The position numbers and the translations under genes are program-made. From positions 124,001 through 188,000 of the forward strand of contig NZ_JQMV01000003.1 in assembly GCF_000744885.1 (NCBI RefSeq): a stretch of 64,000 nt of DNA, given 5' to 3'. Under the pieces are notes generated by a model. That model made no database searches. It was given only the letters and a program-made list of their open reading frames with translations, and was not told where the DNA came from. This document shows positions 4,020 to 58,423 of this stretch, in pieces (positions within the stretch are counted from its first letter, which is position 1; every line of letters begins with the position of its first letter). Source of the stretch: Thermus amyloliquefaciens (lineage in GTDB: Bacteria > Deinococcota > Deinococci > Deinococcales > Thermaceae).

Positions 4020-4636
4020 ATGGCGGGGGTGGAAGGTCCCCTCGAGGCTCCCTTCTGGTCCTTGGGCCTCCGGGTGGCCGGGGTGGACGAGGCCGGCCGG
4101 GGGCCTGGGCGGGGCCCATCGTGGTGGGGGCGGTGATCCTGCCTCCCGGGCGTTACCCTTTTCGGGACTCCAAGCTCCTAAGCCCAAGGGAGCGGGAGCG
4201 CCTGGCCGAGGAGGTGCGTCGGGTGGCCCTGGCCCATGCCCTGGGGGTGGCGGAGGTGGCGGAGGTGGACCGGCTGGGGCCCCTTCGGGCCACCCTGCTT
4301 GCGGCGGAGCGGGCTTTGGCCGGGCTGGATCCTCCTCCCGAGGCCTTGGTCACCGACTACCTCCAGGTGGCCACCGCCTTGCCCCTGCTCGCCCCTCCTA
4401 AGGCGGACCAACATAGCCCCAGCGTGGCCGCGGCCAGCATCCTGGCCAAGGTGCACCGGGACGGGCTCATGGAGGAGCTGGACCGCCTTTACCCTGGCTA
4501 TGGCTTTGCCCGGCACAAGGGCTACGGCACCCCGGAGCACCAGGAGGCCCTGGCCCGTTTGGGGCCTTCGCCGGTCCACCGCAGGCGCTACGCCCCCGTG
4601 GCCCAGGCGGCCTTAAGGTTTCCTGAAGGGCCTTAG
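4020..4636 (+). pseudogene. rnhB: ribonuclease HII, frame broken by one missing G
   Basis: RNase HII cleaves the RNA strand of RNA-DNA hybrids and removes misincorporated ribonucleotides. From the ATG at 4020 the frame reads GLRVAGVDEAGRG, the family's N-terminal active-site motif, up to about 4103. The rest (AWAGPIVVGAVIL, VTDYLQ, HSPSVAAASILAKVHRD, GYGFARHKGYGT) is in a different frame. Adding one G to the G5 run at 4099-4103 restores a continuous enzyme of about 205 residues. As it stands, the longest single frame (229 codons from 3947) replaces the catalytic Asp-Glu pair with unrelated sequence. The cause may be a sequencing indel, a real mutation or slippage. Confidence 0.88.
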
Positions 4637-4672
4637 GCCGCCTTTGGGCTAGGCTGGAAGGTGGAGGTGTCC

Positions 4673-5143
4673 ATGCGGCTTCTTTTCCCCCTCCTGGCGG
4701 GCTTGCTCTCGGCCTGCACCGTGACCCTCGAGGGGTTTACGTTAAGCTACCGTTGGGACTTTACCCCGGTCATCCTGCGCTTTGAGCCGGACCGGGGGGC
4801 GGGGGCCACCTACTACGTGGGGGAGGAGGTCCGGTTCTTCCTCACCCTGGCGGACCCCGGCTGGATAAGCCTGGTGGCCATCGATCCCGATGGGCGCACC
4901 TACGAGCTGGACCGCTTGTACCTGGGCCGCGGCACCCACGTGCTCCCTCCCGGGGCCTATAGCTACACCCTCACGCCCCCGAGGGGGCTCCAGCGGGTGC
5001 GGGCCATCTACATGGATGGCCCGCCTGGGAGCCTGCGCCTGGAAGGGGTATATACCGACTGGGACGCCCGGCTCAGGGTGTACCTGGAGGCCTCGGGAGC
5101 CCGCCACTACCAGGTGGTGGAAACCTACTTCTACGTCCGCTGA
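4673..5143 (+). CDS. DUF4384-type lipoprotein
   Basis: A 156-residue protein with a lipoprotein signal: a hydrophobic stretch ending in LAGLLSAC, with the Cys near residue 15 as the lipidation site. The rest is beta-rich (TYYVGEEVRFFLTLADPGWISLVAIDPDG), resembling DUF4384 domains found in Thermus/Deinococcus surface proteins. The ATG at 4673 is chosen because GGAGGTG lies just upstream. A GTG at 4661 is possible but would add four residues before the signal. It likely sits in the cell envelope; no function is assigned. Confidence 0.75.
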   Translation: MRLLFPLLAGLLSACTVTLEGFTLSYRWDFTPVILRFEPDRGAGATYYVGEEVRFFLTLADPGWISLVAIDPDGRTYELDRLYLGRGTHVLPPGAYSYTLTPPRGLQRVRAIYMDGPPGSLRLEGVYTDWDARLRVYLEASGARHYQVVETYFYVR

Positions 5144-5165
5144 CTGCATGAACTTGCAAAGGGGC

Positions 5166-5196
5166 TTGCCCTTTCCGCCCCCAGGTGGGGTATAAT
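5166..5196 (+). promoter_or_regulatory. promoter of first TRAP binding-protein gene
   Basis: TTGCCC (5166-5171) and a perfect TATAAT (5191-5196) are 19 nt apart. An AAGGAGG ribosome-binding site (5211-5217) and an ATG at 5224 follow. The perfect -10 suggests strong expression. Confidence 0.7.
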
Positions 5197-5223
5197 CCCC
5201 CTGGACCGCTAAGGAGGTCAAAA

Positions 5224-6303
5224 ATGAAGCGGCGTGACTTCTTGAAAAAGACAGGTATCGGCGTGGCGGCCAGCGCGGCGTTTGGCCCAGTCTTTGCCCA
5301 GGCCCAGCCCACCCTAAGGTGGCGCCTCACCAGTAGCTTTCCCAAAAGCCTAGACACGCTTTTCGGCGGGGCTGAGGAATTTGCCCAGAGGGTGGCGGAG
5401 CTCACGGGAGGCAAGCTGCAGATCCGCGTCTACCAGGCGGGGGAGATCGTGCCCGGGCTACAGGTGCTGGATGCGGTGCAGCAGGGCACCGTGGAGATGG
5501 GCCAGACCGCCAGCTACTACTACGTGGGCAAAAGCCAGGCTTTGGCCTTTGATGCGGGGGTGCCCTTCGGCCTCACCTACCGCCAGCAAAACGCCTGGAT
5601 GTACCACGGGGGCGGCATCGGTCTCTTCCGTTCCATCTTCGCGGACTTCGGCATCATCCAGTTCCCCGCAGGAAACACGGGCGTGCAGATGGGCGGCTGG
5701 TTCCGTAGGGAGATCAAGGGCTTGGCGGATCTAAAGGGGCTTAAGATGCGCATCCCTGGTCCTGGGGGCCAGGTGATGAGCCGGCTTGGGGTGGTGCCCC
5801 AGGTGTTGGCGGGCGGCGACATCTATCCCGCTCTAGAGCGCGGTGCCATTGACGCCACCGAGTGGGTTGGCCCCTACGACGATGAAAAGCTGGGCTTCTA
5901 TAAGGTGGCCAAGTACTACTACTACCCCGGCTGGCACGAGCCTGGGACCCAGCTCACCCTTTACGTGAACCTGAAGGAGTGGCAGAAGCTTCCCAAGGAG
6001 TATCAGCAGGCCATTGAGGTGGCGGCCTCGGAGGTGAACCTCACCATGCAGGCCAAGTACGACCAGCTGAACGCCGCAGCCCTCCAGCGCCTCATCAAGA
6101 ACGGTGTTCGCCTCCGGAAGTGGCCTGCTGAGATTCTAAAGGCGGCTCAGAAGGCGGCCTTTGAGTGGTTTGAGGAAGAATCCGCCAAAGACGCTACCTA
6201 CAGGAAGGTCTACACCGCCTGGAAGAAGTTCCGCGAGGAGCAGTACCGCTGGTTCGGGGTGGCGGAGCTGGGCTACGAGCAGTTCGCCTTCCCCGCCGTC
6301 TGA
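5224..6303 (+). CDS. TRAP transporter substrate-binding protein, DctP/TakP type (copy 1)
   Basis: A 359-residue periplasmic binding protein of the DctP family. It begins with a twin-arginine signal (MKRRDFLKKTGIG, then a hydrophobic run and AQA), so it should be exported folded. ATEWVGPYDDEKLGFYKVAKYYYYP resembles the ligand pocket of the TakP-like branch, which binds alpha-keto acids or lactate with a metal ion; this assignment is by family. No DctQ or DctM membrane partner is in the window. The ATG at 5224 follows AAGGAGG; an upstream in-frame start at 5185 overlaps the promoter and is unlikely. Copy 2 follows directly. Confidence 0.9.
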   Translation: MKRRDFLKKTGIGVAASAAFGPVFAQAQPTLRWRLTSSFPKSLDTLFGGAEEFAQRVAELTGGKLQIRVYQAGEIVPGLQVLDAVQQGTVEMGQTASYYYVGKSQALAFDAGVPFGLTYRQQNAWMYHGGGIGLFRSIFADFGIIQFPAGNTGVQMGGWFRREIKGLADLKGLKMRIPGPGGQVMSRLGVVPQVLAGGDIYPALERGAIDATEWVGPYDDEKLGFYKVAKYYYYPGWHEPGTQLTLYVNLKEWQKLPKEYQQAIEVAASEVNLTMQAKYDQLNAAALQRLIKNGVRLRKWPAEILKAAQKAAFEWFEEESAKDATYRKVYTAWKKFREEQYRWFGVAELGYEQFAFPAV

Positions 6304-6318
6304 GCCTTGCCCTCTACT

Positions 6319-6340
6319 CCGGGGGCCCGGCGGCCCCCGG
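6319..6340 (+). terminator. GC hairpin after TRAP copy 1
   Basis: CCGGGGGCC (6319-6327) pairs with GGCCCCCGG (6332-6340) over a 4-nt loop, 16 nt after the stop codon. There is no U-run after it, so it may act as a 3' stabiliser or a weak terminator before the next promoter. Confidence 0.5.
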
Positions 6341-6346
6341 GATGTC

Positions 6347-6376
6347 TTGCATACGTTATCCACTCCTCGGTATAAT
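6347..6376 (+). promoter_or_regulatory. promoter of second TRAP binding-protein gene
   Basis: TTGCAT (6347-6352) and a perfect TATAAT (6371-6376) are 18 nt apart, upstream of GAGGAGG and the ATG at 6419. The second copy therefore has its own promoter. Confidence 0.75.
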
Positions 6377-6418
6377 CCACCCCGAACCAACCCTGAACAT
6401 GGGTGGTGAGGAGGTAGC

Positions 6419-7498
6419 ATGAAAAGACGGGATTTTTTGAAGAAGGCAGGTATCGGCGTAGCGGCCAGCGCGGCCTTCGGCCCAGTCTTTGCCCAGGCCC
6501 AGCCCACGGTGAGGTGGCGGCTAGCCTCGAGCTTCCCTAAGAGCCTGGACACCATTTATGGGGCAGCGGAGGTGTTGGCGGAGCGGGTTTCCACCCTCAC
6601 CGGCGGCCGCTTCCAGATCCGCCCCTACCAGGCGGGGGAGATCGTGCCCGGGCTACAGGTGCTGGACGCGGTGCAGCAAGGTACCGTGGAGGTGGGTCAC
6701 ACCGCCAGCTACTACTACGTGGGTAAGAACTCCGCCTTTGCCTTTGACACCGCCTTGCCCTTCGGCTTCACCGCCCGCCAGCAGAACGCCTGGTTCTACC
6801 ATGGTGGGGGCATTGAGGCTACCCGGCCCCTGTATGCGGACTTCGGCCTGATTCAGTTTCCTGGGGGAAACACCGGTGCCCAGATGGGAGGCTGGTTCCG
6901 CAAGGAGATTAAGAGCGTGGACGACCTCAAGGGCCTCAAGATGCGCATCCCCGGCCTGGGCGGAGTGGTGATGAGCCGGCTTGGGGTGGTGCCCCAGACC
7001 TTGGCCGGCGGCGACATCTATCCCGCCTTGGAACGGGGCACCGTGGACGCCGCGGAGTGGGTGGGCCCCTACGACGACCTGAAGCTGGGCTTCTACAAGG
7101 TGGCCAAGTACTATTATTACCCCGGCTGGTGGGAGCCCGGTCCCGCCCTGGTCTTCATCGTCAACCTCAAGGAGTGGCAGAAGCTCCCCAAGGAGTACCA
7201 GCAGGCCTTTGAGGTGGCTGCCGCCGAGGCCAACCTAAGCATGGTCGCCCGCTACGACGCCCAAAACCCCAAGGCGCTCCAGACCCTATTGCAAAGGGGG
7301 GTGCGGTTGAGGAAGTTCCCTAACGATGTCCTCAAAGCTGCCCAGAAAGCCGCGTTTGAGCTCTTTGAGGAGGAGGCGGCCAAGAACCCGCTTTACAAGA
7401 AGGTCTATACCGCCTGGAAGAAGTTCCGCGAGGAGCAGTACCGCTGGTTTGGGGTGGCAGAGCTGGGCTACGAGCAGTTCGCCTTCCCTTCCGTCTAG
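6419..7498 (+). CDS. TRAP transporter substrate-binding protein, DctP/TakP type (copy 2)
   Basis: A 359-residue paralogue of the preceding gene with the same length, an almost identical Tat signal (MKRRDFLKKAGIG) and long identical blocks (RIPGLGG/RIPGPGG, QEW-type pocket, EEQYRWFGVAELGYEQFAFP at the C-terminus). I estimate that roughly three quarters of residues match. Differences include EATRPLYADFG in place of GLFRSIFADFG and AEWVGPYDDLK in place of TEWVGPYDDEK, near the presumed ligand site, so specificity may have diverged. It has its own promoter, and a terminator follows at 7516. No TRAP permease is adjacent. Confidence 0.9.
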   Translation: MKRRDFLKKAGIGVAASAAFGPVFAQAQPTVRWRLASSFPKSLDTIYGAAEVLAERVSTLTGGRFQIRPYQAGEIVPGLQVLDAVQQGTVEVGHTASYYYVGKNSAFAFDTALPFGFTARQQNAWFYHGGGIEATRPLYADFGLIQFPGGNTGAQMGGWFRKEIKSVDDLKGLKMRIPGLGGVVMSRLGVVPQTLAGGDIYPALERGTVDAAEWVGPYDDLKLGFYKVAKYYYYPGWWEPGPALVFIVNLKEWQKLPKEYQQAFEVAAAEANLSMVARYDAQNPKALQTLLQRGVRLRKFPNDVLKAAQKAAFELFEEEAAKNPLYKKVYTAWKKFREEQYRWFGVAELGYEQFAFPSV

Positions 7499-7515
7499 GG
7501 TTCGTGGAGGTGGCT

Positions 7516-7540
7516 GCCCCGGGGTATTCCCCGGGGCTTT
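7516..7540 (+). terminator. rho-independent terminator after TRAP copy 2
   Basis: GCCCCGGGG (7516-7524) and CCCCGGGGC (7529-7537) form a 9-bp stem with a TATT loop, followed by TTT and a further T-rich stretch. Confidence 0.75.
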
Positions 7541-7568
7541 GCCTTTTGGGAGCTGGGTTTCCCCGGGC

Positions 7569-7598
7569 TTGACAGGGGGGGAGGACCGGGTTTAAAAT
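7569..7598 (+). promoter_or_regulatory. promoter of malE operon
   Basis: A perfect TTGACA (7569-7574) and TAAAAT (7593-7598) are 18 nt apart, ending about 30 nt before the malE start. No clear operator palindrome was seen. Confidence 0.7.
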
Positions 7599-7628
7599 TG
7601 CCCTGGAAAAGCTTCCATGGGGGTGTGT

Positions 7629-8918
7629 ATGAGGCGTAGAGAGTTTCTCAAGAAGGCAGGGGTTGGGCTGGTTGCCAGCGCCCTTTGGGGGCCGGCCTTG
7701 GTGCGGGCCCAAGCGGGCCCGGTCATCCGTGTGGCTGGGGACTCCACCGCGGTGGGCGAGGGTGGCCGCTGGATGAAGGAGATGGTGGAGGCCTGGGGCA
7801 AGAAGACGGGCACCCGGGTGGAGTACATAGACTCCCCGGCGGATACCAACGACCGCTTGGCCCTCTACCAGCAGTACTGGGCGGCCAGGAGCCCGGATGT
7901 GGACGTTTACATGATCGACGTGATCTGGCCGGGCATCGTGGCTCCCCATGCCCTTGACCTGAAGCCGTACTTCTCGGAGAACGAGCTCAAGGAGTTCTTC
8001 CCCCGCATTGTCCAGAACAACACCATCCGCGGTAAGCTCACCTCCATTCCCTTCTTTACAGATGCGGGCATCCTCTATTACCGCAAAGACCTTCTGGAAA
8101 AGTACGGGTTCAAGAACCCGCCCCGCACCTGGGCAGAGCTGGAGCAGATGGCCAAGAAGGTCATGGAGGGAGAGCGCAAGGCGGGCAACCGCGACTTCTG
8201 GGGCTTTGTCTTCCAAGGCAAGGCCTACGAGGGCCTCACCTGCGACGCCTTGGAGTGGATCTACTCCCATAAGGGCGGGCGCATCATCGAGCCGGATGGC
8301 ACCGTCAGCATCAACAATGGCCGCGCCGCTTTAGCCCTCAACACCATCCGCCGCTTCGTGGGCACCATTGCCCCTTCTGGGGTCACCAGCTACGCGGAAG
8401 AGGAGGCTAGGAACGTCTGGCAACAGGGCAATAGCCTCTTCATGCGCAACTGGCCCTACGCCTACGCCCTGGGCCAGGCGGAGGGAAGCCCCATCCGCGG
8501 CAAGTTTGGGGTCACGGTGCTTCCCAAGGGCGGAGCCGATGCGCCCAACGCCGCTACCCTGGGTGGTTGGCAGCTCATGGTTTCCGCCTACAGCCGCTAC
8601 CCCAAGGAGTCGGCCGATCTGGTGAGGTACCTGGCCTCCTACGAGGTGCAAAAGGACAACGCCGTGCGGCTTTCCCGCCTGCCCACCCGGCCGGCCCTCT
8701 ACACCGACCGGGACGTCCTGGGCAGGAACCCTTGGTTCCGCGACCTTCTCCCCGTCTTCCAGAACGCGGTTTCCCGGCCTTCTGATGTGGCTGGCGCCAA
8801 GTACAACCAGGTGTCCGAGGCCATCTGGACCGAGGTGCACAGCGTGCTAACCGGGAAGAAGACCGGGGAGGTGGCGGTGCGGGACCTCGAGGGCCGCTTG
8901 CGCCGTATCCTGCGCTAA
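7629..8918 (+). CDS. malE: ABC sugar-binding protein (trehalose/maltose type)
   Basis: A 429-residue extracellular solute-binding protein, family 1. It resembles the Thermus trehalose/maltose/sucrose-binding protein and is followed by two permeases in MalF-MalG order. The N-terminus [13 protein letters not shown] is a twin-arginine signal with a cleavage site near VRAQA. The pocket probably includes the [16 protein letters not shown] and [12 protein letters not shown] regions. The ATG at 7629 is preferred, with GGGGGTG just upstream; an ATG at 7617 would place four residues before the twin arginines. Substrate is inferred from the family. A hairpin after the gene probably raises its level above the permeases. 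Confidence 0.88.
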
Positions 8919-8929
8919 CCCTCCTCTTA

Positions 8930-8954
8930 CCCCGGGGGCCCTCCCCCGGGGTTT
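8930..8954 (+). terminator. hairpin between malE and malF, possible partial terminator
   Basis: CCCCGGGGG (8930-8938) pairs with CCCCCGGGG (8943-8951), followed by a short TTTAT. It lies inside the operon, so incomplete termination or 3' protection of the malE message is the likely role. Confidence 0.6.
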
Positions 8955-8967
8955 ATCCTTAAAGAGC

Positions 8968-9843
8968 ATGCTGACCCAACGGCAGGTGCGTTTGGCCTGG
9001 GCCCTGGTCCTTCCCACCCTATTGGTGGTGGTGTTGGTGGCGGGGTACCCCCTGGCCCAGGTCTTTTACTGGTCTTTGTTCCGGGCGGATATCGCCTTTG
9101 TGGAGCCTCCGGAGTTCGTGGGTTTAAAGAACTACCTTTACCTTCTCCAGGACCCCGATTTCCGCCAGGCCCTATGGAACACGGTGAAGTTCACGGTGAT
9201 CTCCGTCAGCCTGGAAACCCTTTTGGGATTGGCCATTGCCTTGGTCATCCATTCCAACTTCAAGGGCCGGGGCTTGGTGCGCACCGCCATCCTCATTCCC
9301 TGGGCCATCCCCACGGTGGTTTCCGCCAAGATGTGGCAGTGGATGCTCCACGATGTCTACGGGGTGATCAACATCCTGGGGGTGAAGCTGGGCATCCTGT
9401 CGCAGAAGGTGGCCTTCCTGGCTCGCCCCGAGCTGGTGCTTCCCGCCATCATCGCCGTGGATGTATGGAAGACCACCCCCTTCATGGCCCTTCTTCTCCT
9501 GGCCGGCCTTCAGCTGATTCCTGAGGAGCTTTACGAGGCCGCCAGCATCGACGGGGCCACCCGTTGGCAGCAGTTTTGGACCATTACCCTTCCCCTTCTT
9601 ACCCCCGCCTTGGTGGTGGCCCTCATCTTCCGTACCCTGGATGCCTTACGGGTGTTCGACGTGATCTTCGTGATGAGTGGGGTCAATCCGGCTACCCGCA
9701 CCCTGGCCGTCTACAACCGTCAGACCTTGATAGATTTCCAGGACCTGGGGTATGGGTCGGCCATAAGCGTGGCGATCCTGGTCTTAATTTTCCTTTTCGT
9801 GGTGGCCTACATGCGCACCCTGGGTAGGGAGGCTTTGCGATGA
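8968..9843 (+). CDS. malF: ABC sugar transporter permease MalF-type
   Basis: A 291-residue inner-membrane permease with six predicted membrane segments and the EAA-type loop (YEAASIDGATRWQQFWTITLPLL) that docks to the ATPase. It works with malE and malG to import disaccharides. The stop overlaps the malG start (ATGA at 9840-9843), indicating translational coupling. No malK-type ATPase gene is in the window, so a shared ATPase encoded elsewhere is likely. Confidence 0.9.
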   Translation: MLTQRQVRLAWALVLPTLLVVVLVAGYPLAQVFYWSLFRADIAFVEPPEFVGLKNYLYLLQDPDFRQALWNTVKFTVISVSLETLLGLAIALVIHSNFKGRGLVRTAILIPWAIPTVVSAKMWQWMLHDVYGVINILGVKLGILSQKVAFLARPELVLPAIIAVDVWKTTPFMALLLLAGLQLIPEELYEAASIDGATRWQQFWTITLPLLTPALVVALIFRTLDALRVFDVIFVMSGVNPATRTLAVYNRQTLIDFQDLGYGSAISVAILVLIFLFVVAYMRTLGREALR

Positions 9844-10682
9844 GGACCTGGCTTCGCCTTGGAAATCGCCTGCTCTTTTACCTGCTGGTGGCCTTCGTGG
9901 TGGTGTATAGCGTCTTTCCCTTTTACTGGGCGGTGATCTCCAGCTTCAAGCCCTCCGACGCCCTTTTCGCCAGCAACCCCAGCTTTTTGCCGCTGCCCTT
10001 CACCCTGGAGCACTATAAGAACGTGTTTCTCCAGGCCAACTTTGGCCGCAATCTGCTGAACTCCTTGGTGGTGGCCGGCGGGGCCACCCTCCTTTCCCTG
10101 GTCCTTGGGGTGCTGGCCGCCTACGCTTTGGGTAGGTTGCCCTTCCCCCCCAGGAACGCCGTGCTCTACCTGGTGCTGGCCATGACCATGTTCCCCCAGA
10201 TCTCCGTCCTGGGAGGGCTTTTCATGCTGCTCCGCCAGACGGGCTTATTCAACACCCATTTGGGCCTTATCCTCAGCTATCTCCTTTTCACCCTCCCTTT
10301 TACCGTCTGGGTCCTGGTGGGTTATTTCAAGGGTTTGCCCCGGGAGCTGGAGGAGGCGGCTTATGTGGACGGAGCCACCCCTTTGCAGACCTTGGTGCGC
10401 ATCATGCTTCCCCTTACGGGCCCGGGTCTAGTGACCACGGGGCTTCTGGCTTTTATCGCCGCTTGGAACGAGTACCTCTTCGCCCTCACCTTCACCGTGG
10501 GCGATGAGGTTAAGACGGTCCCTCCAGCCATCGCCAGCTTTGGGGGAGCCACGCCCTTTGAGATCCCCTGGGGCTCCATCATGGCGGCCAGCGTGGTGGT
10601 GACCGTGCCCCTGGTGGTGCTGGTATTGATCTTCCAGCACCGCATCGTGGCGGGGCTAACCGCTGGCGCCGTCAAGGGGTAG
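9840..10682 (+). CDS. malG: ABC sugar transporter permease MalG-type
   Basis: A 280-residue partner permease with about six membrane segments and the EAA loop (LEEAAYVDGATPLQTLVRIMLP). It completes the membrane channel with malF. It is the last gene of the operon; four nt separate its stop from the converging phosphoglucomutase gene, and no terminator is visible between them. The substrate class follows malE. Confidence 0.9.
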   Translation: MRTWLRLGNRLLFYLLVAFVVVYSVFPFYWAVISSFKPSDALFASNPSFLPLPFTLEHYKNVFLQANFGRNLLNSLVVAGGATLLSLVLGVLAAYALGRLPFPPRNAVLYLVLAMTMFPQISVLGGLFMLLRQTGLFNTHLGLILSYLLFTLPFTVWVLVGYFKGLPRELEEAAYVDGATPLQTLVRIMLPLTGPGLVTTGLLAFIAAWNEYLFALTFTVGDEVKTVPPAIASFGGATPFEIPWGSIMAASVVVTVPLVVLVLIFQHRIVAGLTAGAVKG

Positions 10683-10686
10683 GGGG

Positions 10687-12261
10687 TTAGCCAAGGGTCT
10701 TGCGCACCAGTTCCATGGCGGTTTCCAGGACCTCTTTAAGGTGCCCCTCCCCTTTGAAGCTTTCCGCGTACACCTTGGCCACGTCCTCGGTGCCGCTGGG
10801 CCGGGCGGCGAACCAGGCGTTTTCCGTCACCACCTTGAGGCCCCCCAGGGGCTCCCCGTTTCCTGGGGCGCGGGTGAGGATGGCCAGGATGGGCTCCTCT
10901 GCCAGCTCCTTTGCCTCCACGTCCTCGGGGGAGAGGCGGGCCAACCTGGCCTTGGCCTCGGGGGAGATGGGGAGGTCCTTGCGGGCGTAGAAGGGCCGGC
11001 CTAGGCTTTGGGCCAGTTCCTCGTAGAGTTCATCGGGAGCCTTCTTCCGCTTGGCCAGGATCTCCGCCGCCAAAAGCCCGAGGAGGATGCCGTCCTTATC
11101 GGTGGAGAAGGGCCTGCCGTCAAAGCGGAGGAAGCTTGCTCCGGCGCTCTCTTCGCCCCCGAAGCCGAGCCAGCCTTCTAAAAGCCCCTCCACGAAGTAT
11201 TTGAAGCCCACCGGGGTCTCGTACACCTCCCGGCCCAACGCCCTGGCCACCCGGTCCAGAAGGGCGCTGGTCACCGCCGTTTTGCCCACCTTGGCCCCCC
11301 GCCAGGTGCGGGTGGTGTAGAGGTGGAAGACGGCGGCGGCCAGGTAGTGGTTGGGGTTCATGAGGCCCCTTGGGGTCACGATCCCGTGGCGGTCGGCGTC
11401 GGGGTCGTTGCCGACGGCCAGGTCATAGCGTTCCTTCAGGGCCAGAAGACCCGCCATGGCGTAGGGGCTGGAGCAGTCCATGCGGATCTTGCCGTCGTGG
11501 TCCTTGGGCATGAAGCGGAAGGTGGGATCTAGGGTGGGGTTCACCACCTCCAGGTTTAGCCGGTAGGCCTCGGCCAGCCGTTCCCACACCCTTAGGCTTG
11601 CACCCCCCAAAGGGTCCACCCCCAGGCGCAGGCCGGAGGCCCGGATGGCCTCGAGGTCCACCGCCTCCCCCACATTTTCCACGTAGAGCCCGGTGTAGTC
11701 AAAAGGCCTGGCTACCTTTAGGGCTTCCCTGAAGGGCAGGCGCTTCACCCCCTTTAGCCCTTCCCCAAGGAGGGCGTTGGCCCTTTCCTCTATGGCCTTG
11801 GTGGTGCGGGTATCCGCGGGGCCGCCCGTGGGGGGGTTGTACTTGAAGCCGCCGTCCTCTGGGGGGTTGTGGCTGGGGGTGAGGAGGACCCCATCGGCCT
11901 TGGCCTCGTGGTGGGCGTTGTGCTCCAGGATGGCCAGGGAGACCAGGGGGGTGGGGGTGGGGCCTCCGTCCGCGGCGATGCGCACCTCGAGGCCGTTGGC
12001 GGCGAAGACCGCCAGGGCGGTGGCCCAGGCGGGTTCGGAGAGGGCGTGGGTGTCCTTGGCCAGGAAGAGGGGCCCGGTGGCTCCAAAGGAGGCCCGAAGG
12101 TCGGCGATGGCCTGGGCGATGGCCAGCACATGGGCCTCGGTGAAGGTGCCCTTGAGGCTGGTGCCCCGGTGGCCACTGGTGCCGAAGGCCACCCGTTGGA
12201 GGGGGTTTTGGGGGTCCGGGCGCTCTTCGTAGTAAAGGGTGAGGAGCTTGGGAAGGTCCAT
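10687..12261 (-). CDS. pgm: phosphoglucomutase (alpha-D-glucose-specific)
   Basis: A 524-residue enzyme interconverting glucose-1-phosphate and glucose-6-phosphate. It shows the phosphoserine loop ([17 protein letters not shown]), the metal-binding loop (NDPDADRHG), the sugar-binding GEESAG and the C-terminal phosphate-binding ARPSGTED. Early residues contain GTSGHRG, diagnostic of the family. Its place beside a disaccharide importer suggests a link between sugar uptake and glycogen or glycolysis, though it lies on the opposite strand. Confidence 0.95.
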
Positions 12262-12270
12262 GCCCCCATT

Positions 12271-12309: not shown

Positions 12310-12313
12310 AAAA

Positions 12314-17323: not shown

Positions 17324-20198
<2,875 letters not shown>

Positions 20199-47333: not shown

Positions 47334-49206
<1,873 letters not shown>

Positions 49207-49216
49207 GGGGTGGGGC

Positions 49217-50026: not shown

Positions 50027-50030
50027 ACCC

Positions 50031-51611
50031 ATGGTGCGCTTTGCCCTGGTCCTCCACGCCCACCTCCCCTATGTGCGCTCCCACGGGATGTGGCCCTTTG
50101 GGGAGGAGACCCTTTACGAGGCTATGGCGGAAACCTATCTGCCCTTGGTGCGAGCCCTGGAAAGGCTTAACCAAGAGGGCGTGGAGGTCCGTTTCACCCT
50201 GGGCGTCACCCCCATCCTGGCGGAGCAGCTGGCCGATGGCCGCATCAAGGAGGGCTTCCGCGCCTACGCCCAGGACCGCCTGGAGAGGGCCCAAGGGGAC
50301 TACCTGCGCTACCAGGGGACGGACCTCGAGGCCAGCGCCCGCCACCAGGTGGCCTTCTGGGAGCTCACCCTGGACCATTTCCACCACCTGGGAGGGGACC
50401 TCCTCCAAGCCTTCCGCCGGGCCCAGGACCGGGGCCAGGTGGAGCTTCTCACCAGCAGCGCCACCCACGGCTACTCCCCCCTTCTGGGGTACGATGAGGC
50501 CCTTTGGGCCCAGATCAAGACGGGGGTGGCCACCTACCGCCGCCACTTTGCTCAGGACCCCACGGGCTACTGGCTCCCCGAGATGGCCTACCGGCCCCGG
50601 GGCCCGTGGAGGCCCCCCGTGGAAGGGGCCCCGGAAGGGATTAGGCCAGGGGTGGACGAGCTCCTCATGCGGGCGGGGATCCGCTACACCTTCGTGGACG
50701 CCCACCTGGTGCAGGGAGGGAAGGCCCTTTCCCCCTACGGGGAGGCCTCCTTGCGGGTGGCGAGCGCCGAGGCCACCTACCACGTCCACGAGCTGGAGTC
50801 GGGCCTGAGGGTGTTGGCCCGCAACCTGGAGACCTCCTTGCAGGTGTGGAGCGCCGACTACGGCTATCCCGGGGAGGGGCTTTACCGGGAGTTCCACCGC
50901 AAGGATCCCCTCTCCGGCCTCCACCACTGGCGGGTCACCCACCGCCAGGCCGACCTCTCCGCCAAGGCCCCCTACGACCCCGAGGCGGCCTTCCGCAAGG
51001 TGAGGGAGCACGCCGCCCACTTTGTGGATCTGGTGGAGCGCCTGGCCCGGGAGCACCCGGATGGGGTCATCCTCGCCCCCTATGACGCCGAGCTCTTCGG
51101 CCACTGGTGGTACGAGGGGGTGGCCTGGCTAGAGGAGGTGCTGCGGCGTCTTGCCCGCGCCAAGGGGGTGCGGGCGGTGACCGTCAAGGAGGCGGTGCAG
51201 GGCAAGGCGGTGCGCACCGCCTTGCCCGAGGGCTCCTGGGGCCGGGGTGGGGACCATAGGGTCTGGCTCAACGAGGCCACCTTGGACTACTGGCGCACCG
51301 TCTACCGGGCGGAAGGGGCCATGCGGGAGGTGGTGCGCCGCGGGAGCCTGCCCCCCCGGGTGCTGCAGCAGGCCATGCGGGAGCTTTTGCTCCTCGAGGC
51401 CTCCGACTGGCCCTTCCTCATCGACACCGGCCAGGCGGCGGCGTACGCCAAGGAGCGTTACCGGGGGCATGCGGAGGCCTTCTTTAGGCTTCTTAAGGGG
51501 GTCTCCCCGGAGGAGCTTGCGGCCTTGGAGGCACAGGATAACCCCTTCCCCGAGGCGGACCCCAGGCTTTACCTGGAGCCCAGCAGGACCCCGCACGGGA
51601 GTGTAGGTTAA
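50031..51611 (+). CDS. GH57 1,4-alpha-glucan branching enzyme
   Basis: A 526-residue cytoplasmic glycoside hydrolase family 57 enzyme, similar to the T. thermophilus branching enzyme TTHA1902. Early [16 protein letters not shown] is typical. The nucleophile Glu lies in [10 protein letters not shown] and the acid/base Asp in [13 protein letters not shown]. It makes alpha-1,6 branches in glycogen. A TACGCT hexamer lies 6 nt upstream, inside the end of lysZ, so it may be transcribed separately. Confidence 0.92.
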
Positions 51612-51616
51612 AGGCC

Positions 51617-52483
51617 GTGGTCCGGCACGCCATCCTTCAGTTCCGTCCGGAGAAGGCCAGGCTGAGGGAAAACCTGGCCCGCCTGGGGGAGCGCTTAAAG
51701 GCCCTGCGCCCCTATGCCCCCGAGGTGGTGGTCCTTCCCGAGGCGGCCTTAACCGGGTACTTCCTGCAGGGGGGGGTGAGGGAGCAGGCCCTTACCCGGT
51801 ATGAGCTTTTGGAGCTCCTTTCGGGGGTGCATAAGGAGGTGGGCTGGGAGGGGCTTTTGGACGTGGTGGTGGGCTTCTACGAGCGGGACGAGGGGGCCTA
51901 CTACAACAGCGCCGCCTACCTGGAGCTCCCCCACCGCGTGGTCCACGTGCACCGCAAGGTCTTCCTGCCCACCTACGGGGTCTTTGACGAGGAGCGCTAC
52001 CTGGCCCGGGGCCGGCGGGTGGAGGCCTTCAACACCCGCTTTGGCCGGGTGGCCATCCTCATCTGCGAGGACTTCTGGCACTCCATCACCGCGGCCATCG
52101 CCGCCTTGGACGGGGCGGAGGTCCTTTACGTGCCCGCGGCGAGCCCGGCCCGGGGCTTCGGGGGGGAACGCCCGGAGAACGTGGAGCGCTGGCGCACCCT
52201 GAGCCGGGCGGTGGCGGCGGAGCACGGGGTGTACGTGGTGCTCTCCAGCCTGGTGGGGTTTGAGGGGGGGAAGGGGATGAGCGGGGGGAGCCTGGCGGTG
52301 GGGCCCGAGGGGCGGATCCTGGCCGAGGCCCCCCTCTTTGAGGAGGCGGCCTTGCTCTTCGGGCTGGACCGGGGTCGGATACCCCCGGTGCGCTACGACA
52401 GCCCCCTGCTTTCCGACCTCCAGGCCGCCCTGCCCCTTCTCCTCCCAGATCTGGAAAGGGTTCTTGGAAAGGAGGCGGGATGA
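51617..52483 (+). CDS. nitrilase-superfamily glutaminase, probable NAD synthetase partner
   Basis: A 288-residue carbon-nitrogen hydrolase with the Glu-Lys-Cys triad in VVLPEAALTGY, HRKVFLPTYGVFDE and LICEDFWHS. YGVFDEERY and EDFW are features of the glutaminase domain of glutamine-dependent NAD synthetases. It overlaps nadE by ATGA, so the two are probably a split form of the usual fused enzyme, one releasing ammonia for the other. GTG start. Confidence 0.88.
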   Translation: MVRHAILQFRPEKARLRENLARLGERLKALRPYAPEVVVLPEAALTGYFLQGGVREQALTRYELLELLSGVHKEVGWEGLLDVVVGFYERDEGAYYNSAAYLELPHRVVHVHRKVFLPTYGVFDEERYLARGRRVEAFNTRFGRVAILICEDFWHSITAAIAALDGAEVLYVPAASPARGFGGERPENVERWRTLSRAVAAEHGVYVVLSSLVGFEGGKGMSGGSLAVGPEGRILAEAPLFEEAALLFGLDRGRIPPVRYDSPLLSDLQAALPLLLPDLERVLGKEAG

Positions 52484-53325
52484 GAATCCTTCAGGCCCCC
52501 AAAGCCCAGGAAAGCCTGGAGCTCAACTGGCCCCTGGTGGCGGACTTCCTCACCCGCTTCCTCCAGGAGGAGCTTGCCTGGAGGGGTTACGAGAAGGCCA
52601 TCGTGGCGGTATCTGGGGGGGTGGACTCCGCCACCACCCTGGCCCTGGCGGTGCGGGCCCTGGGGCCTAAAGGGGTGCACGCCCTCTTCCTGCCCCACCG
52701 GGAGAGTAGCCCCCTTTCCCGGGAACATGCCCACCTGGTGGCCGAGGCCTTCGGGGTGGAGCTGGAGGAGGTGGACATCACCCCCATGGTGGAGGGCTAC
52801 GCCGCGCAAACCCCGGACCTCACCCCCCACCGCAAGGGCAACCTCATGGCCCGGGCCCGGATGATGGTCCTCTTTGACAAGTCCCAGGCCTACCAGGCCC
52901 TGCCCCTGGGCACGGGCAACAAGACGGAGAGGCTTTTCGGCTACTTCACCTGGCACGGGGACGACACCCCCCCGGTGAACCCCCTGGGGGACCTTTACAA
53001 AACCCAGGTCTGGGGCTTGGCCCGCCACCTGGGGGTGCCGGAGGCGGTGGTGGCGAAGGCCCCCACCGCCGACCTCATCCCAGGCCAGACGGACGAGGCC
53101 GACCTGGGGGTGCGCTACCTGCGGGCGGACGTGATCCTGGAGCACTACCTGAAGGGCTACCCCGACGCCTACATCGAGAGCCTGGGCTACACCCCTGAGG
53201 AGATCGCCCGGGTCAAGGAGCGGGTGAACCGCACCCACTGGAAGCGGGCCTTGCCCACCGTGGCCCTCCTTTCCTCCACCGCCATTGGGGAGTTCTACCT
53301 GAGGCCCTTGGACTACCGGCCATGA
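52480..53325 (+). CDS. nadE: NAD+ synthetase
   Basis: A 281-residue ATP-pyrophosphatase that amidates nicotinic acid adenine dinucleotide. P-loop AVSGGVDSATTLALAV, PLGTGNKTERLFGYFTWHGDD and NPLGDLYKTQV are diagnostic. The downstream CoA-binding gene overlaps by ATGA. The glutaminase domain is supplied by the upstream gene. Confidence 0.95.
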   Translation: MRILQAPKAQESLELNWPLVADFLTRFLQEELAWRGYEKAIVAVSGGVDSATTLALAVRALGPKGVHALFLPHRESSPLSREHAHLVAEAFGVELEEVDITPMVEGYAAQTPDLTPHRKGNLMARARMMVLFDKSQAYQALPLGTGNKTERLFGYFTWHGDDTPPVNPLGDLYKTQVWGLARHLGVPEAVVAKAPTADLIPGQTDEADLGVRYLRADVILEHYLKGYPDAYIESLGYTPEEIARVKERVNRTHWKRALPTVALLSSTAIGEFYLRPLDYRP

Positions 53326-53735
53326 CCGACCAGGAGCTCAAGGCCCATCTGGAAAAGGCCCGGACCATCGCCGTCCTCGGGGCCCACAAGGACCCTTCCC
53401 GCCCTGCCCACTACGTGCCCCGATACCTTTGGGAGGAGGGCTACCGCATCCTGCCCGTGAACCCCCGCTTTGCCGGGGAGGAGCTTTTCGGAACCCAGGT
53501 GGTGGCGAGCCTGGGGGAGATCGCCGAGCCCGTGGACGTTCTGGACGTCTTCCGCCCCCCGGAGGCCCTCTTGGGCCACCTGGAGGAGGTCCTGGCCCTG
53601 CGCCCGGGGGTGGTCTGGCTCCAGTCGGGGATCCGCCACCCCGCCTTTGAGGCGGCCTTGAGGGAGGCGGGCCTCCTGGTGGTGGCGGACCGGTGCCTCA
53701 TGGTGGAGCACCGCCGGCTCTTCGCCGCCCCCTGA
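53322..53735 (+). CDS. CoA-binding protein (YccU-like)
   Basis: A 137-residue Rossmann-fold CoA-binding protein: IAVLGAHKDPSRPAHYVPRYLWEEGY, ILPVNPRFAGEELFG, DVLDVFRPPEAL, VWLQSGIRH and CLMVEHRRL near the C-terminus. The family resembles the first domain of succinyl-CoA synthetase alpha. Biological role not defined; the operon with nadE is coupled by overlap. Confidence 0.9.
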   Translation: MTDQELKAHLEKARTIAVLGAHKDPSRPAHYVPRYLWEEGYRILPVNPRFAGEELFGTQVVASLGEIAEPVDVLDVFRPPEALLGHLEEVLALRPGVVWLQSGIRHPAFEAALREAGLLVVADRCLMVEHRRLFAAP

Positions 53736-53749
53736 TCCCGCTTTTGCCC

Positions 53750-54751
53750 ATGTCCCGCCTGCAGGAGGCCCTCCTTGCCTGGTACCGGGTCCACGCCCGG
53801 GCCCTCCCCTGGCGGGGGGAGAAGGACCCCTACCGCATCCTGGTGGCCGAGGTCCTTCTCCAGCAGACCCGGGTGGAGCAGGCCATCCCTTACTACCACC
53901 GCTTCCTGGCCCGTTTCCCCAGCCTAAAGGCCCTGCGGGAGGCCCCTTTGGAGGAGGTCTTGAAGGCCTGGCAGGGGGCAGGCTACTACCGCAGGGCGGT
54001 GCACCTCCACCGCCTGGCCCAGGAGGTGGAGGCCCTGCCCCCAAGTTACGGCCAACTCCTGAAGCTTCCCGGCCTCGGCCCCTACACCGCGGCGGCGGTG
54101 GCCTCCTTGGCCTTTGGGGAACGGGTGGCGGCGGTGGACGGGAACGTGAGGCGGGTCCTCTGCCGGCTTTTCGCCCTGGAGGACCCCTCCCCCAAGGCCC
54201 TGCAGGACCTGGCGCAACGCCTTCTCCCCGAGGGGGAGGACCCCGGGGCCTGGAACCAGGCCCTGATGGACCTGGGGGCCACGGTCTGCCTGCCCAGGGT
54301 GCCCCGTTGCCCCGCCTGTCCCCTCGAGGCCCACTGCCGGGGCAAGGGGGCGCCGGGGCGCTACCCCAGGCCAAGGAGGCGCAACGTCCGGGAGGAGGTG
54401 CTGGCGGCTTTGGTCCTCCTGGGGCGGAAGGGGGTCCATCTGGAGCGGCTTTCCGGGCGCTTCTTTGGGCTTTATGGGGTGCCGCTTTTCCCCTTGGAGG
54501 AGCTTTCCCAAAGGGCGGAGGCCCTTGGGGTGAGGCCCCGTCCCGCCGGGGAGGTGCGCCACGCCCTCACCCACCGCCGCCTCAGGGTCCAGGTTTACCT
54601 GGCCCCCTGGGATGGGGAAGGGGAGGACCCCAGGGGGAGGCCCCTACCCAAGCTCATGGAGAAGGTGCTCCGCCAGGCGCAGGCCCTCTTGGCTCATGAG
54701 GGCATAGTCCCCTTCCCGCACGCAAAGCCCCACGGCGTAGAGCCCCCTTAG
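53750..54751 (+). CDS. mutY: A/G-specific adenine glycosylase
   Basis: A 333-residue base-excision enzyme removing A opposite 8-oxoG. HhH-GPD: VLLQQTRVEQ, LPGLGPYTAAAV and catalytic AVDGNVRRVL. The [4Fe-4S] cysteines are spaced C-x6-C-x2-C-x5-C in CLPRVPRCPACPLEAHC. A C-terminal MutT-like domain (from about 225) recognises 8-oxoG, with HALTHRRLRV. The last 108 nt are antisense to the MnmG-like gene. Confidence 0.94.
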   Translation: MSRLQEALLAWYRVHARALPWRGEKDPYRILVAEVLLQQTRVEQAIPYYHRFLARFPSLKALREAPLEEVLKAWQGAGYYRRAVHLHRLAQEVEALPPSYGQLLKLPGLGPYTAAAVASLAFGERVAAVDGNVRRVLCRLFALEDPSPKALQDLAQRLLPEGEDPGAWNQALMDLGATVCLPRVPRCPACPLEAHCRGKGAPGRYPRPRRRNVREEVLAALVLLGRKGVHLERLSGRFFGLYGVPLFPLEELSQRAEALGVRPRPAGEVRHALTHRRLRVQVYLAPWDGEGEDPRGRPLPKLMEKVLRQAQALLAHEGIVPFPHAKPHGVEPP

Positions 54752-55342
54752 CCGCTTGAGGCGGAAGCTGGCCTCCTCCCACTCCTCCGGGTGGAAGGCG
54801 TGGTAGCGCACCCGGTAGCCCGGGGTGGCGGGGGTTTCCGGCACCTCCCCTTCCCGTTCCAGGAAGCGGAAGCCCAGGGCCAGGAGGCTCTGGAAGAGGT
54901 CGGGGTAGCTGGCCTCGGAAAGCCTCCCCGCCTCCTCCTCCACCTCTCCTATGCGGAGCCTTGCCCCCAGGAAGCTTCCCACCGCCAAGACCACCCGCTC
55001 GGCCCGCACCGGGGGGCCTTCCCAGGTGCTCACCCCTTGGACCTGGTCCCCCTCCAGGAGGAGGCCCGTGGCCGTGGCCTGGAAGAGGTGCAGGTTCTTC
55101 TCGGCCTCCAAGAGGTACTTGGCCCGGGCGTGGAAGGCCCAAAGCCGGGGATCGTCCGGGTCGTAGGCCTTTTCCAGGAGGCTTCCTTGGGGAAAGGGGG
55201 GCTTTGGGGGTAAAAAGGGCATCATCACCGAGTCCAGGTTCTGGGTGAGGAGGCCCACCCGCACCCCCTCCTTGGCCAGCCGGTGGGCGGCCTCGCTTCC
55301 CGCGAAGCCCGCCCCCACGATGAGGACCCTGTAGCCGTCCAT
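54644..55342 (-). CDS. MnmG/GidA-related FAD-dependent protein
   Basis: A 232-residue Rossmann-fold flavoprotein: VLIVGAGFAGSEAAHRLAKEG, NLDSVMMPFLPP, and ERVVLAVGSFLGARL. It is a small GidA-type protein like TTHA1897, lacking the tRNA-binding C-terminus of MnmG, so tRNA modification is not implied. Start ATG 55342; the track continues upstream only through the tRNA-Trp region. Its 3' end overlaps mutY by 108 nt. Confidence 0.8.
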   Translation of the reverse strand: MDGYRVLIVGAGFAGSEAAHRLAKEGVRVGLLTQNLDSVMMPFLPPKPPFPQGSLLEKAYDPDDPRLWAFHARAKYLLEAEKNLHLFQATATGLLLEGDQVQGVSTWEGPPVRAERVVLAVGSFLGARLRIGEVEEEAGRLSEASYPDLFQSLLALGFRFLEREGEVPETPATPGYRVRYHAFHPEEWEEASFRLKRLRGLYAVGLCVREGDYALMSQEGLRLAEHLLHELG

Positions 55343-55369
55343 AACGAAAAAGGGCCCCGAAGGGCCGTT

Positions 55370-55445
55370 TGGCGGGCCGTGAAGGACTCGAACCTCCAAC
55401 CCCCGGTTTTGGAGACCGGTGCTCTGCCAATTGAGCTAACGGCCC
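55370..55445 (-). tRNA. tRNA-Trp(CCA)
   Basis: 76 nt on the minus strand: acceptor GGGCCGT/ACGGCCC, anticodon loop CTCCAAA (anticodon CCA), T-arm GAGGTTCGAGTCCTT and encoded CCA end. Confidence 0.95.
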
Positions 55446-55457
55446 CCGCCTTGAGGG

Positions 55458-55486
55458 ATTGTAGCACACCCTCGGGAAAAGGCCAA
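55458..55486 (-). promoter_or_regulatory. promoter of tRNA-Trp
   Basis: On the minus strand TTGGCC (55486-55481) and TACAAT (55463-55458) are 17 nt apart; the tRNA begins 12 nt later. Confidence 0.65.
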
Positions 55487-55515
55487 GGGGCGCCCTCCTT
55501 GGGTAGAATGTGCCC

Positions 55516-56411
55516 ATGCTCCGCGGCTGGGTCTTGCTGGCCTCGTGTTGGCTTTTACCCTGGGCCTTGGCCCAGGGGGGTTCCGGCCTGCCCCCAGGGG
55601 GCCCTTTGGCGGCCCCTGCCCTGGGGCACACCGTGGCCCGGGGGACACCCTCTTCGCCATCGCCCGGCGCTACGGCACCACGGTGGAGGAGCTCATGCGC
55701 CTCAATGGCCTGGAGACCTTCCTCATCCAACCGGGGCAGGTGCTTAGGCTTCCCCAAGGACGGGAGGGGATCCACGTGGTGGCCCCCGGGGATACCCTTT
55801 TCTCCCTGGCCCGGCGCTACGGCACCACCGTGGAGGAGCTCATGCGCCTCAACGGGCTTTCCACGCCAGGGCTTAAGGTGGGCCAGGTCCTAAGGGTCCC
55901 AACCCCCAAGGGGGAGGGCGGGTCCAAGGGCGGGGCCTCCTCCGAGGCCCCGCCTTCGCCCCGGGAGGAGGCCCGTGACCCGGGGCAGCCTCCCGGGGCT
56001 TTGGGTGAGGATTACGACCCGGAAAGCCCGCTTCTCAAGGCCGTGCTCCGCTACCTGGGGGTCCCCTACAAGTACGGGGCGAACTCCTCCCTCTCCCTGG
56101 ACTGCTCCGCCTTCGTGGCCCAGGTGTATGCGGAGCTGGGGGTGGCCCTGCCCCGCACCAGCCGGGAGCAGTACCAGGCCCTGCCCCCGGCGGACGCGCT
56201 CCGCCCGGGAGACCTGGTCTTCTTCAGCTTCGGGGGCCGGGAGGTGGATCACGTGGGGATCTACCTGGGCCGGGGGGTCTTCGCCCACGCCTCGAGCTAC
56301 GGGAGCCGGGTGGTGATCGAGAGCCTCGAGGCCCCCTTCTACCAGAAGGCCTACCGGGGGGCCCGGCGGGTGGTGCGGGAGGCGGGGAAACGAACCCACG
56401 GGGGGCCTTAG
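55516..56411 (+). pseudogene. LysM-NlpC/P60 cell-wall hydrolase, frame broken by one missing G
   Basis: The ATG frame at 55516 gives a signal peptide (MLRGWVLLASCWLLPWALAQ) and HTVARG, the start of a LysM repeat. It then shifts; the frame continuing the LysM domain (DTLFAIARRYGTTVEELMRLNG) is one base off. Restoring one G to the G5 run at 55640-55644 joins them. Then come a second LysM (GDTLFSLARRYG), a linker, and an NlpC/P60 domain with catalytic Cys in SLDCSAFVAQVY and His in VDHVGIYLG. About 298 residues when repaired. TAGAAT is 6 nt before the ATG. Confidence 0.85.
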
Positions 56412-57348
56412 GGCCAGTCCTTCATCTCCCCCCGGGCCTTCTTGAGGGCGGCGAGGAGGGCCTCCCCTGGCCTCCCCTCACCCCGGAAGGCCTCGCTTTC
56501 CCGCTCCAACCAAACCTCCCCTTCCCGGAAGAGCACCCCCCGGGCCTCCTTCAGGGCCTCTTCCAGGAGGGCCCCCAGGGAGTAGGCGGGGGCCCCCACC
56601 GGCAGGTCGGGGTCAAAGCCCTGGCGGGCGAGGGCTTGCCCGTAGGCCGGCTCCCGCGCCTCCATGGTCCCCCCTTGGGCGAAGTAGCGCGATAGCACCC
56701 TCCCCCAGTCCCCCACCCGGCTGTAGGGGGCCATGGCCTGGAAGGCGGCCTCGAGGTCCTCGGGCCCGTAAGGGCGGTAGCGGTTCTCGTGCACCACCAG
56801 GCCTCGGGGAAGCCGGGGCCTGGGGGGCCCGCCTCGTCCGGTACCCCCACCGCCAGCCCCACCACAGGGAAGACCCCAGGGGGGAGGCCCAGGAGGTCCA
56901 AAAGGGCTTCCGGCTGGTTCAGCACCCCGCCGATGAAGCAGGCCCCGTAGCCCAGGGCCTCGGCGGTGAGGGCCAGGTAGCCCGCGGCAAGCCCGGCGTC
57001 CAGGATGGCGAAGTGGAGGGCCGTCTTGGGCCAAGAGGCCATCCTCTTCCCCCGGTGGGCCAGGAGGCGTTCCAGGCGGTGGACGTCCGCCAGGAAGACG
57101 AAGAACTCCGCCGCCTGCCGGACGTGTTCCTGCTCCCCCGAAAGCCTGGCCACCTCCGCCCGCAGGCGGGGGTCGGTGATGCGGAGGGCGCTGTAGAGCT
57201 GGGCGCTGGCGTCGGTGGGGGCCCGTTGCAGGGCGAAGAGGAGCCTTTCCAGATCCCTTTCCGGGATGGGCTCGGGCTTGAAGTGCCGCACGCTCCGGCG
57301 CTGGGCGAGCACGTGCAAGAGGGCTTCGCCAAGGGCGGTTCCTTCCAC
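56408..57348 (-). pseudogene. NfsA-like nitroreductase/flavin reductase, frame broken by one missing base
   Basis: The GTG (57348 or 57357) frame encodes LAQRRSVRHFKPEPIPERDLERLL, an FMN-binding nitroreductase start, up to VVGLAVGVPDEAG. The C-terminal third (LVVHENRYRPYGPEDLEAAF, VLSRYFAQGG) is in another frame. Adding one base to the G6 run at 56822-56827 (C in the message sense) joins them to about 315 residues, typical of NfsA-like proteins. TATAGT lies 7 nt before GTG 57348. Reduces nitro groups or flavins with NAD(P)H. Confidence 0.8.
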
Positions 57349-57356
57349 GCCCCCCA

Positions 57357-58423
57357 CTATAGCCCGAGCCAGGCCAGATAGGCCCTAAAGAGGGCCTCCC
57401 CGAAGAAGAAGGCCACCGCCCCGCCCAGGGCCAGGTAGGGGCCGAAGGGGATCTTGCGCTGGCGGAGGAGAAGGCCCAGGAGGGCCCCGGCGAAGACCCC
57501 GAGGAAGAGCCCCAAGAAGGCGTAAAGCCCAAGCCAAGCCCCCAGGGCCCCCAGGAGCTTCACGTCCCCGTAGCCCATGGCCACGGGCTCCTCCTCCTCC
57601 CCTTCCGGGGTGGGCCGGAAGGCCCAGTAGAGCCCCCCGCCAGGGCCAGCCCCCCGGCGGAGAGGAGGGCCCCTTTCAGGGTGCCCAGGAAGTCCAAGCC
57701 CAGGGCGGGGGAGAGCAGGAGGGCCAGGGGCAAAAGGGGGAGGGTGAGCCGGTCGGGGAGGACCACGGGGCGTCCCACGCGAGCGGAAAGCCCCCAGGTG
57801 AGGAAGGCCAAGGCCATCCCCACCCCTGGGCCCAGGAGGGCCCCGAAGAGGGCCGCCATGTGGACCTGGTGGGGGCCCACGGGCACCTCCGCCCTCCCCT
57901 CCCGGAAGCGCCTCAGGAAAAGCCCCCCGTACCCGGCGATGAGCGCCAGGGCCCCGGCGGCCAGCAGAGCCCCGTCCAGGGCCTCGGGGAAGGGAAGGGG
58001 GAAGCCGAGGACAAGGGCAGAGAGGAGACCCAGGAAGAGGAGGCCGTAGGTGAGGGGGTCGGGAAGCTCGTAGGTGTCCAGGTCGATGAAGGAGAGGGCC
58101 ACCAAAAAGCCCAGGAAGGCGAAGACCAGGAGGGCCTCAGGGGAAGGGGGGTAGCGGAGGCTTGCCAGCAGAAAAAGCCCCCCGGTGAGGGCCTCCACCA
58201 GGGGGTAGCGCCCGCGGATGGGGCTATGGCAATAGCGGCACTTTCCCCTAAGGGCCAGGTAGGAGAGGACGGGCACCAGGTCGGCCGGGCCCAAGGGGTG
58301 GCCGCAATGGGGGCAACGGGAGGGGGGGTAGACCACGGACTCCCCCCTGGGCACGCGGTGGATGACCACGTTCAGGAAGGAGCCCACCAGGAGGCCTAAG
58401 ACCAGGGCGAAAAGGGGCCACAT
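57357..58423 (-). pseudogene. pilD: prepilin peptidase, frame broken by one missing base
   Basis: Inner-membrane leader peptidase for type IV pilins. The first 265 codons hold the N-terminal zinc module (CPHCGHPL, CRYCHSPI), GRYPLVEALTG and the catalytic Asp in SFIDLDTYELPDPL. The second Asp, in the GYGDVKLLGALGAWLG motif, is in another frame, in the ORF 57357-57584. Adding one base to the C6 run at 57633-57638 (G in message sense) joins them to about 355 residues. Without it the enzyme lacks an essential Asp. TAAAAT is 6 nt before the ATG. Confidence 0.87.

Follow-up and report, generated by a model that had tools for sequence, protein, structure and literature searches.

We focus here on four genes in a stretch of 64,000 nucleotides of the Thermus amyloliquefaciens genome (the window), each of which is interrupted at or beside a short run of G or C. 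These four breaks are very probably consensus errors in an assembly made from PacBio reads alone, a reading to which we give a probability of about 95%; the genes are most likely intact in the living organism. Systematic under-calling of homopolymers, the reading that the first-pass annotation had put first, is backed by a census of one-base losses across the genome, by breaks in essential genes too, and by published work showing that the assembly came from PacBio reads only.

Four genes with one base missing

First of all, rnhB (ribonuclease HII; 4041..4636, plus strand) changes frame at about 4098/4100, where the sequence reads as a G5 run (4099..4103), and is one base short relative to 31 homologous proteins, not all of them from distinct genomes. 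Second, the gene for a LysM-NlpC/P60 endopeptidase (55516..56411, plus strand) is broken near 55637-55644 (alignment break at about 55636/55641), around a G5 run at 55640..55644 that follows a short C run, and lacks one base relative to 7 proteins from at least three genomes. Third, a nitroreductase-family gene (56408..57357, minus strand) breaks at 56822..56827, a G6 on the plus strand and thus a C6 in the coding strand, with the frame change aligned at about 56832/56830 and one base lost relative to 38 proteins. Finally, the prepilin peptidase (A24) gene (57363..58423, minus strand) breaks at 57633..57638, a C6 on the plus strand and a G6 in the coding strand (about 57640/57633), one base short of 32 proteins. 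In each of the four the halves share a strand but are read in different frames, and the homology census described below calls every site a one-base loss (d=2).

The four G/C runs proposed earlier are where they were said to be, as read directly from the sequence, and the proposal of one lost base per gene stands. The placement of each loss inside a homopolymer holds in general; in the LysM gene the loss falls in a C/G tract, and on our reading of the alignment it would be better placed in the C part of this C-then-G tract than in the G5. Likewise, the pieces do match clear families (RNase_HII; LysM and NLPC_P60; Nitroreductase; A24_N_bact and Peptidase_A24, the last two over both pieces of the peptidase), with the exception of the C-terminal nitroreductase piece, which matches 0 Pfam families, the Nitroreductase match being confined to the N-terminal piece. 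A coding-frame model alone showed breaks in only two of the four genes, the nitroreductase and the peptidase, and called the short N-terminal parts of rnhB and of the LysM gene non-coding.

We searched 26 genomes of the same genus and counted those aligning at each site. One added base does restore the frame: the aligned Thermus sequences are a net one base longer in 24/24 genomes at rnhB, 22/22 at the LysM gene, 26/26 at the nitroreductase and 23/24 at the peptidase, the one exception being T. parvatiensis, in which the extra base is present at the site and another is missing some 15 bases further on. The relatives have a single unbroken frame at the same places; at all four sites the base is present in each genome that aligns. 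Split frames shared with close relatives, which would have spoken for something other than error or recent mutation, were thus looked for in this comparison with a negative outcome.

One-base losses across the genome

The census applied one homology procedure throughout and, for this genome, examined 464 kb, of which 262 kb were covered by homologues; it replaced an ab initio scan for frame changes, because too many of the flags in that scan were gene overlaps. Used as the sole evidence, the scan, which we rejected, found two of the four sites, passing over rnhB and the LysM gene; per 100 kb it raised 3.1 flags in the window, against 5.5 in the rest of this genome's stretches, 6.5 in genome G007, 23.5 in T. 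parvatiensis and 2.5 in T. thermophilus TMY.

In the covered 262 kb the census found nine one-base losses, four in the window and five in about 200 kb outside it. The outside rate is given separately, as the window was itself selected for holding four sites. A G/C run of at least 5 lies within the 21-base break interval in eight of the nine, against 16% expected for random intervals, and the G/C-run context of the losses thus exceeds chance; this interval test replaced automatic gap placement, which had set some losses beside the run. Two low-rate genomes gave one loss each (G022, 1 in 338 kb; TMY, 1 in 79 kb), neither of them with such a run. The five losses outside the window against these two in 417 kb give a one-sided binomial probability of about 0.04, calculated by hand, a modest contrast. 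Genome G007 has 12 losses in 200 kb, and this higher rate is counted against error.

The census total for this genome is 15 events, the nine losses and six others. Two events with d=1, in smc and ftsK (names taken from matches below the curated cut-off), consist of two one-base alignment gaps each; further events have d=-10 (smc again) and d=32 (L271:11578). Only one event is a net one-base gain; it sits in a PIN-domain gene (L271:19364), at a C7 run, rests on comparison with a single homologue and is also counted against error. An event at window position 2419 (d=4), considered as a one-base gain, was rejected as an artefact lying upstream of a gene.

The losses outside the window fall in fusA, secA, serA, paaZ and a gene for a DEAD-box RNA helicase, and so reach essential genes regardless of function. 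Elongation factor G, the product of fusA, is essential; here the gene is split over two ORFs by a lesion in mid-gene, and the next EF-G match that spans the greater part of it has an identity of only 35%.

Three of the four window sites do lie within 2 kb of each other, as was noted at the outset, and this is only weak evidence of clustering. Under uniform placement the probability of three in 2 kb is 0.01 for 4 losses in 64 kb, 0.035 for 12 in 262 kb and 0.32 for 100 in 2.16 Mb; over this range a special locus is unconvincing, and we rejected it as a candidate.

Origin of the assembly

The assembly of T. amyloliquefaciens YIM 77409T (2,160,855 bp in 6 scaffolds, with 74 pseudogenes) is reported to derive from PacBio RS reads only, assembled with HGAP 2.1.1 and with no short reads, under BioProject PRJNA234787 (PMC4769583). 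Its scaffold N50 is listed as 2,055,291 in PMC10989939, slightly unlike the 2,065,958 printed in PMC4769583. The nominal coverage, 384.9x (PMC4769583), would normally be enough for a good consensus, and we count it against error.

In the mechanism we propose, early PacBio chemistry with HGAP consensus would sometimes lose one base of a G or C run, and such bases would stay uncorrected where short reads are not used. The Thermus genome is GC-rich and full of G/C runs, and this abundance would result in about 2.5 to 3.5 apparent frameshifts for every 100 kb of coding sequence open to comparison. Long G/C runs are not depleted in the assembly (2.56 runs of at least 6 per kb, against 2.00 in G022), a further point against error. 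Between the two 23S copies no homopolymer length difference was found; this comparison is uninformative, because few differences are expected anyway.

There are two precedents within the genus. The PacBio-only version of the T. thermophilus TMY genome is described as having numerous frameshifted proteins, mostly through single-nucleotide deletions relative to hybrid re-sequencing (PMC8601142), and it was this abundance of deletions that led to re-sequencing with short reads, by which the errors were fixed. The likeness is one of genus, technology class and type of lesion; TMY is, on the other hand, another strain, its errors brought exclusion from RefSeq (PMC8601142), and it enters our census as the re-sequenced version. 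The second precedent, the genome of T. parvatiensis RL, was finished with PacBio RSII (PMC5529391). In the same census 33 of its 35 events are one-base losses (33 in 102 kb), and a G/C run of at least 5 accompanies 25 of these losses. This genome differs in having an older draft from 454 and Sanger reads (PMC5529391) and lesions about nine times as dense as those here, so that PacBio origin alone does not set the rate.

Mutation, slippage and switching as alternatives

Real recent mutation, either decay of non-essential genes or the shedding of homopolymer bases by a mismatch-repair-deficient lineage, is very improbable as the explanation of the losses, though a few real mutations could be present among the errors. 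The four window losses are private to this genome, as recent mutations would be, and mutL as assembled is read in two frames around a proline-rich linker, a defect that would make homopolymer indels more frequent if it is real. However, the same lesion sits in the middle of fusA, and secA and serA are affected too. Loss of repair should yield both gains and losses; the single net gain, at the C7 run, fits that expectation, and yet losses outnumber net gains by 9 to 1. Furthermore, mutS is open over 822 amino acids, and the mutL shift, +1 (or -2) in the C-rich linker, may be the same artefact. A strain that truly lacks mutL function, a homopolymer hypermutator whose broken genes, fusA included, are either restored by slippage or present in mixed form within the population, is a more improbable case still.

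We give very little credence to the idea that transcriptional slippage, raised by the first-pass annotation, or ribosomal frameshifting restores these frames. Slippage in Thermus dnaX is real, and that gene likewise shows frame ambiguity at a homopolymer (PMC1088944); in addition, one family of IS transposases has a split that recurs from genome to genome. In dnaX, however, slippage occurs on nine As and is functional, the shortened form making up 50% of the product (PMC1088944), whereas the runs here are of about 4 to 7 G or C and the split is present in one assembly only, the relatives, unlike the IS family, having unbroken frames at the same places.

Contingency (phase-variable) switching at the G/C runs, also raised earlier, is scarcely credible. 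In its favour, two of the genes, for the prepilin peptidase and the cell-wall endopeptidase, have surface-related products, like many phase-variable genes, and runs of at least 6 lie near the site in 16/24 relatives at rnhB and 20/24 at the peptidase. But a survey of phase variation counts runs of 7 or more (PMC3711429), and those in the window, at 5 to 6, fall short of this. Some relatives have interrupted runs: at rnhB the longest G run is 4 in 8/24 genomes, and at the nitroreductase it is 3 to 5 in 9/26. Moreover, every aligned relative has the base at all four sites, in a comparison across the genus, and the lesion also occurs in housekeeping genes elsewhere in the genome.

The preferred reading, consensus error, means that the breaks are probably not a real feature of the organism and belong to a known kind of sequencing artefact. 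Very roughly, we would expect about 54 one-base losses in 2.16 Mb at the outside-window rate and 74 when all losses are used, figures that derive from five and nine events, and some of the 74 pseudogenes that PMC4769583 lists for this genome are likely to be such errors. The artefact is an ordinary one, yet through it healthy genes, essential ones among them, appear dead. As the type-strain assembly represents its species in genome collections, the split fusA, secA, mutL, rnhB and prepilin peptidase genes can be misread as gene losses in comparative studies, of competence, pili or DNA repair in Thermus for instance.

Frame breaks at four G/C runs

The G/C runs and frame breaks proposed in the first-pass annotation are present in rnhB (G5, 4099-4103), the LysM-NlpC/P60 gene (G5, 55640-55644), the nitroreductase gene (G6, 56822-56827) and the prepilin peptidase gene (C6, 57633-57638), and a homology-based census agrees that each gene lacks one base relative to other Thermus. 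A coding-frame model that makes no use of homology flags two of the four breaks, those in the nitroreductase and the peptidase. We searched 26 genomes of the same genus and counted those aligned at each site: a net additional base occurs in 24/24 at rnhB (two unaligned), 22/22 at LysM-NlpC/P60 (four unaligned), 26/26 at the nitroreductase (none unaligned) and 23/24 at the peptidase (two unaligned). The sole exception, T. parvatiensis RL, has the base at the peptidase site and is missing another about 15 bases further on; the proposed comparison with related genomes thus finds no aligned relative lacking the base at any site. Among genomes given a handle here, single-frame proteins span the sites in 22, 3, 26 and 23 genomes, respectively, the low LysM count probably reflecting a divergent N-terminus. 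The gene pieces on either side of the breaks match the expected families, apart from the C-terminal nitroreductase piece, which has no Pfam match.

Sequencing platform and one-base losses genome-wide

We put at roughly 95% the probability that the four breaks are artefacts of a long-read-only assembly, which for single sites we infer rather than read from raw data. Homopolymer under-calling, the leading hypothesis of the annotation, is supported by the census, by the association of losses with G/C runs, by a broken fusA and by the platform. According to part of the genome report (PMC4769583), strain YIM 77409T was sequenced by PacBio RS only and assembled with HGAP 2.1.1 at 384.9x, giving 2,160,855 bp, 6 scaffolds and 74 pseudogenes, with N50 printed as 2,065,958; part of PMC10989939 gives a scaffold N50 of 2,055,291. 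The assembly holds 2,160,855 bases in 6 contigs, the window lying on that of 2,055,291. PMC10989939 also estimates completeness at 97.81% for YIM 77409T, 95.76% for T. parvatiensis RL and >99% for its other genomes; the two least complete are both PacBio-sequenced, the platform having been looked up for these two alone, and a separate database estimate for T. amyloliquefaciens is 99.88. T. parvatiensis RL was completed by PacBio RSII after a draft by 454 and Sanger, as part of PMC5529391 describes.

The census took in the window and 20 stretches of 20 kb from the main contig, with four other genomes treated identically; only about 56% of the sampled 464 kb was tested, because coverage depends on homologues that happened to be sampled. 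T. amyloliquefaciens shows 15 events, nine of them one-base losses, in 262 kb covered by homologues. The controls of known sequencing history are T. parvatiensis RL (35 events, 33 losses, 102 kb) and the hybrid re-sequenced T. thermophilus TMY, main contig 2,151,326 bp (one event, one loss, 79 kb); two further genomes are G007 (14 events, 12 losses, 200 kb) and G022 (four events, one loss, 338 kb). By best-match coverage only, four of the nine losses lie in the window (~57 kb) and five outside (~200 kb), so that the window, chosen for holding four, is about three times as dense as the rest. Comparing all nine with the two losses of the low-rate genomes, G022 and TMY, gives p 0.004; leaving out the window reduces this to a modest difference, with p about 0.04 by a hand calculation.

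A G/C run of at least 5 lies in the break interval of 8/9 losses in T. amyloliquefaciens, against a chance expectation of ~16% (one-sided binomial p about 3e-6), the ninth loss, in fusA, being at four consecutive Cs. The same holds for 11/12 losses in G007, 25/33 in T. parvatiensis and 0/2 in the low-rate genomes. In G007, too, LysM-NlpC/P60 and nitroreductase each lack one base, but at different G/C runs (L295:1737 and L295:2364).

Affected genes and alternative explanations

Named by NCBIfam on intact homologues, genes with one-base losses include fusA, secA (near its C-terminus), serA and paaZ, which pass curated cut-offs, and a DEAD-box RNA helicase, below the cut-off of its best model; smc and ftsK, both below cut-offs, carry larger or double shifts. 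fusA, preceded by an ORF that is presumably rpsG, is broken into ORFs of 465 and 393 aa, and elsewhere only one EF-G-like sequence matches most of the query, at 35% identity. Since living cells need EF-G, the lesion is either an error or bypassed.

The possibility that these are real mutations in a lineage deficient in repair needs serious consideration, since mutL as assembled lies in two frames around a proline-rich linker (449290-450586 of the main contig; L379:3897-5193) and one net gain occurs, at a C7 run. We nevertheless consider it very unlikely, as it accounts neither for the fusA lesion nor for losses outnumbering gains by 9 to 1, and the mutL break itself lies in C-rich sequence, like the other lesions. 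Separately, at window position 18998 the window's 23S copy differs from the genome's second copy as well as from four copies in three relatives, with a few further differences from the second copy in and near 23S.

Contingency switching at the G/C runs, which the annotation had also raised, is scarcely credible: runs of at least 6 lie near the site in 16/24 relatives at rnhB and 20/24 at the peptidase, but switching calls for longer runs of varying length, these are short and interrupted in the remaining relatives, and the base is present in every aligned relative at all four sites. The annotation's other suggestion, that dnaX-like slippage restores the frame, has a negligible chance of being right, as slippage of this kind needs either a long run of A or T or a split that is conserved (part of PMC1088944), whereas these are G/C runs in genes with no split conserved among relatives, unlike the DDE_Tnp_1_assoc transposase.

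A conserved split in an IS transposase

This transposase is split between two frames at a run of As followed by Gs (AAAG7 or A5G6), in 7/7 copies with both halves found (L268:11814-12913, L272:7672-8774, L272:11129-12231, L264:15185-16287, L310:1939-3041, L301:1310-2394 and L304:18001-19085), across T. amyloliquefaciens, T. parvatiensis and the hybrid-sequenced TMY. It is a candidate case of true programmed frameshifting or slippage and gives a real-looking contrast to the window genes.
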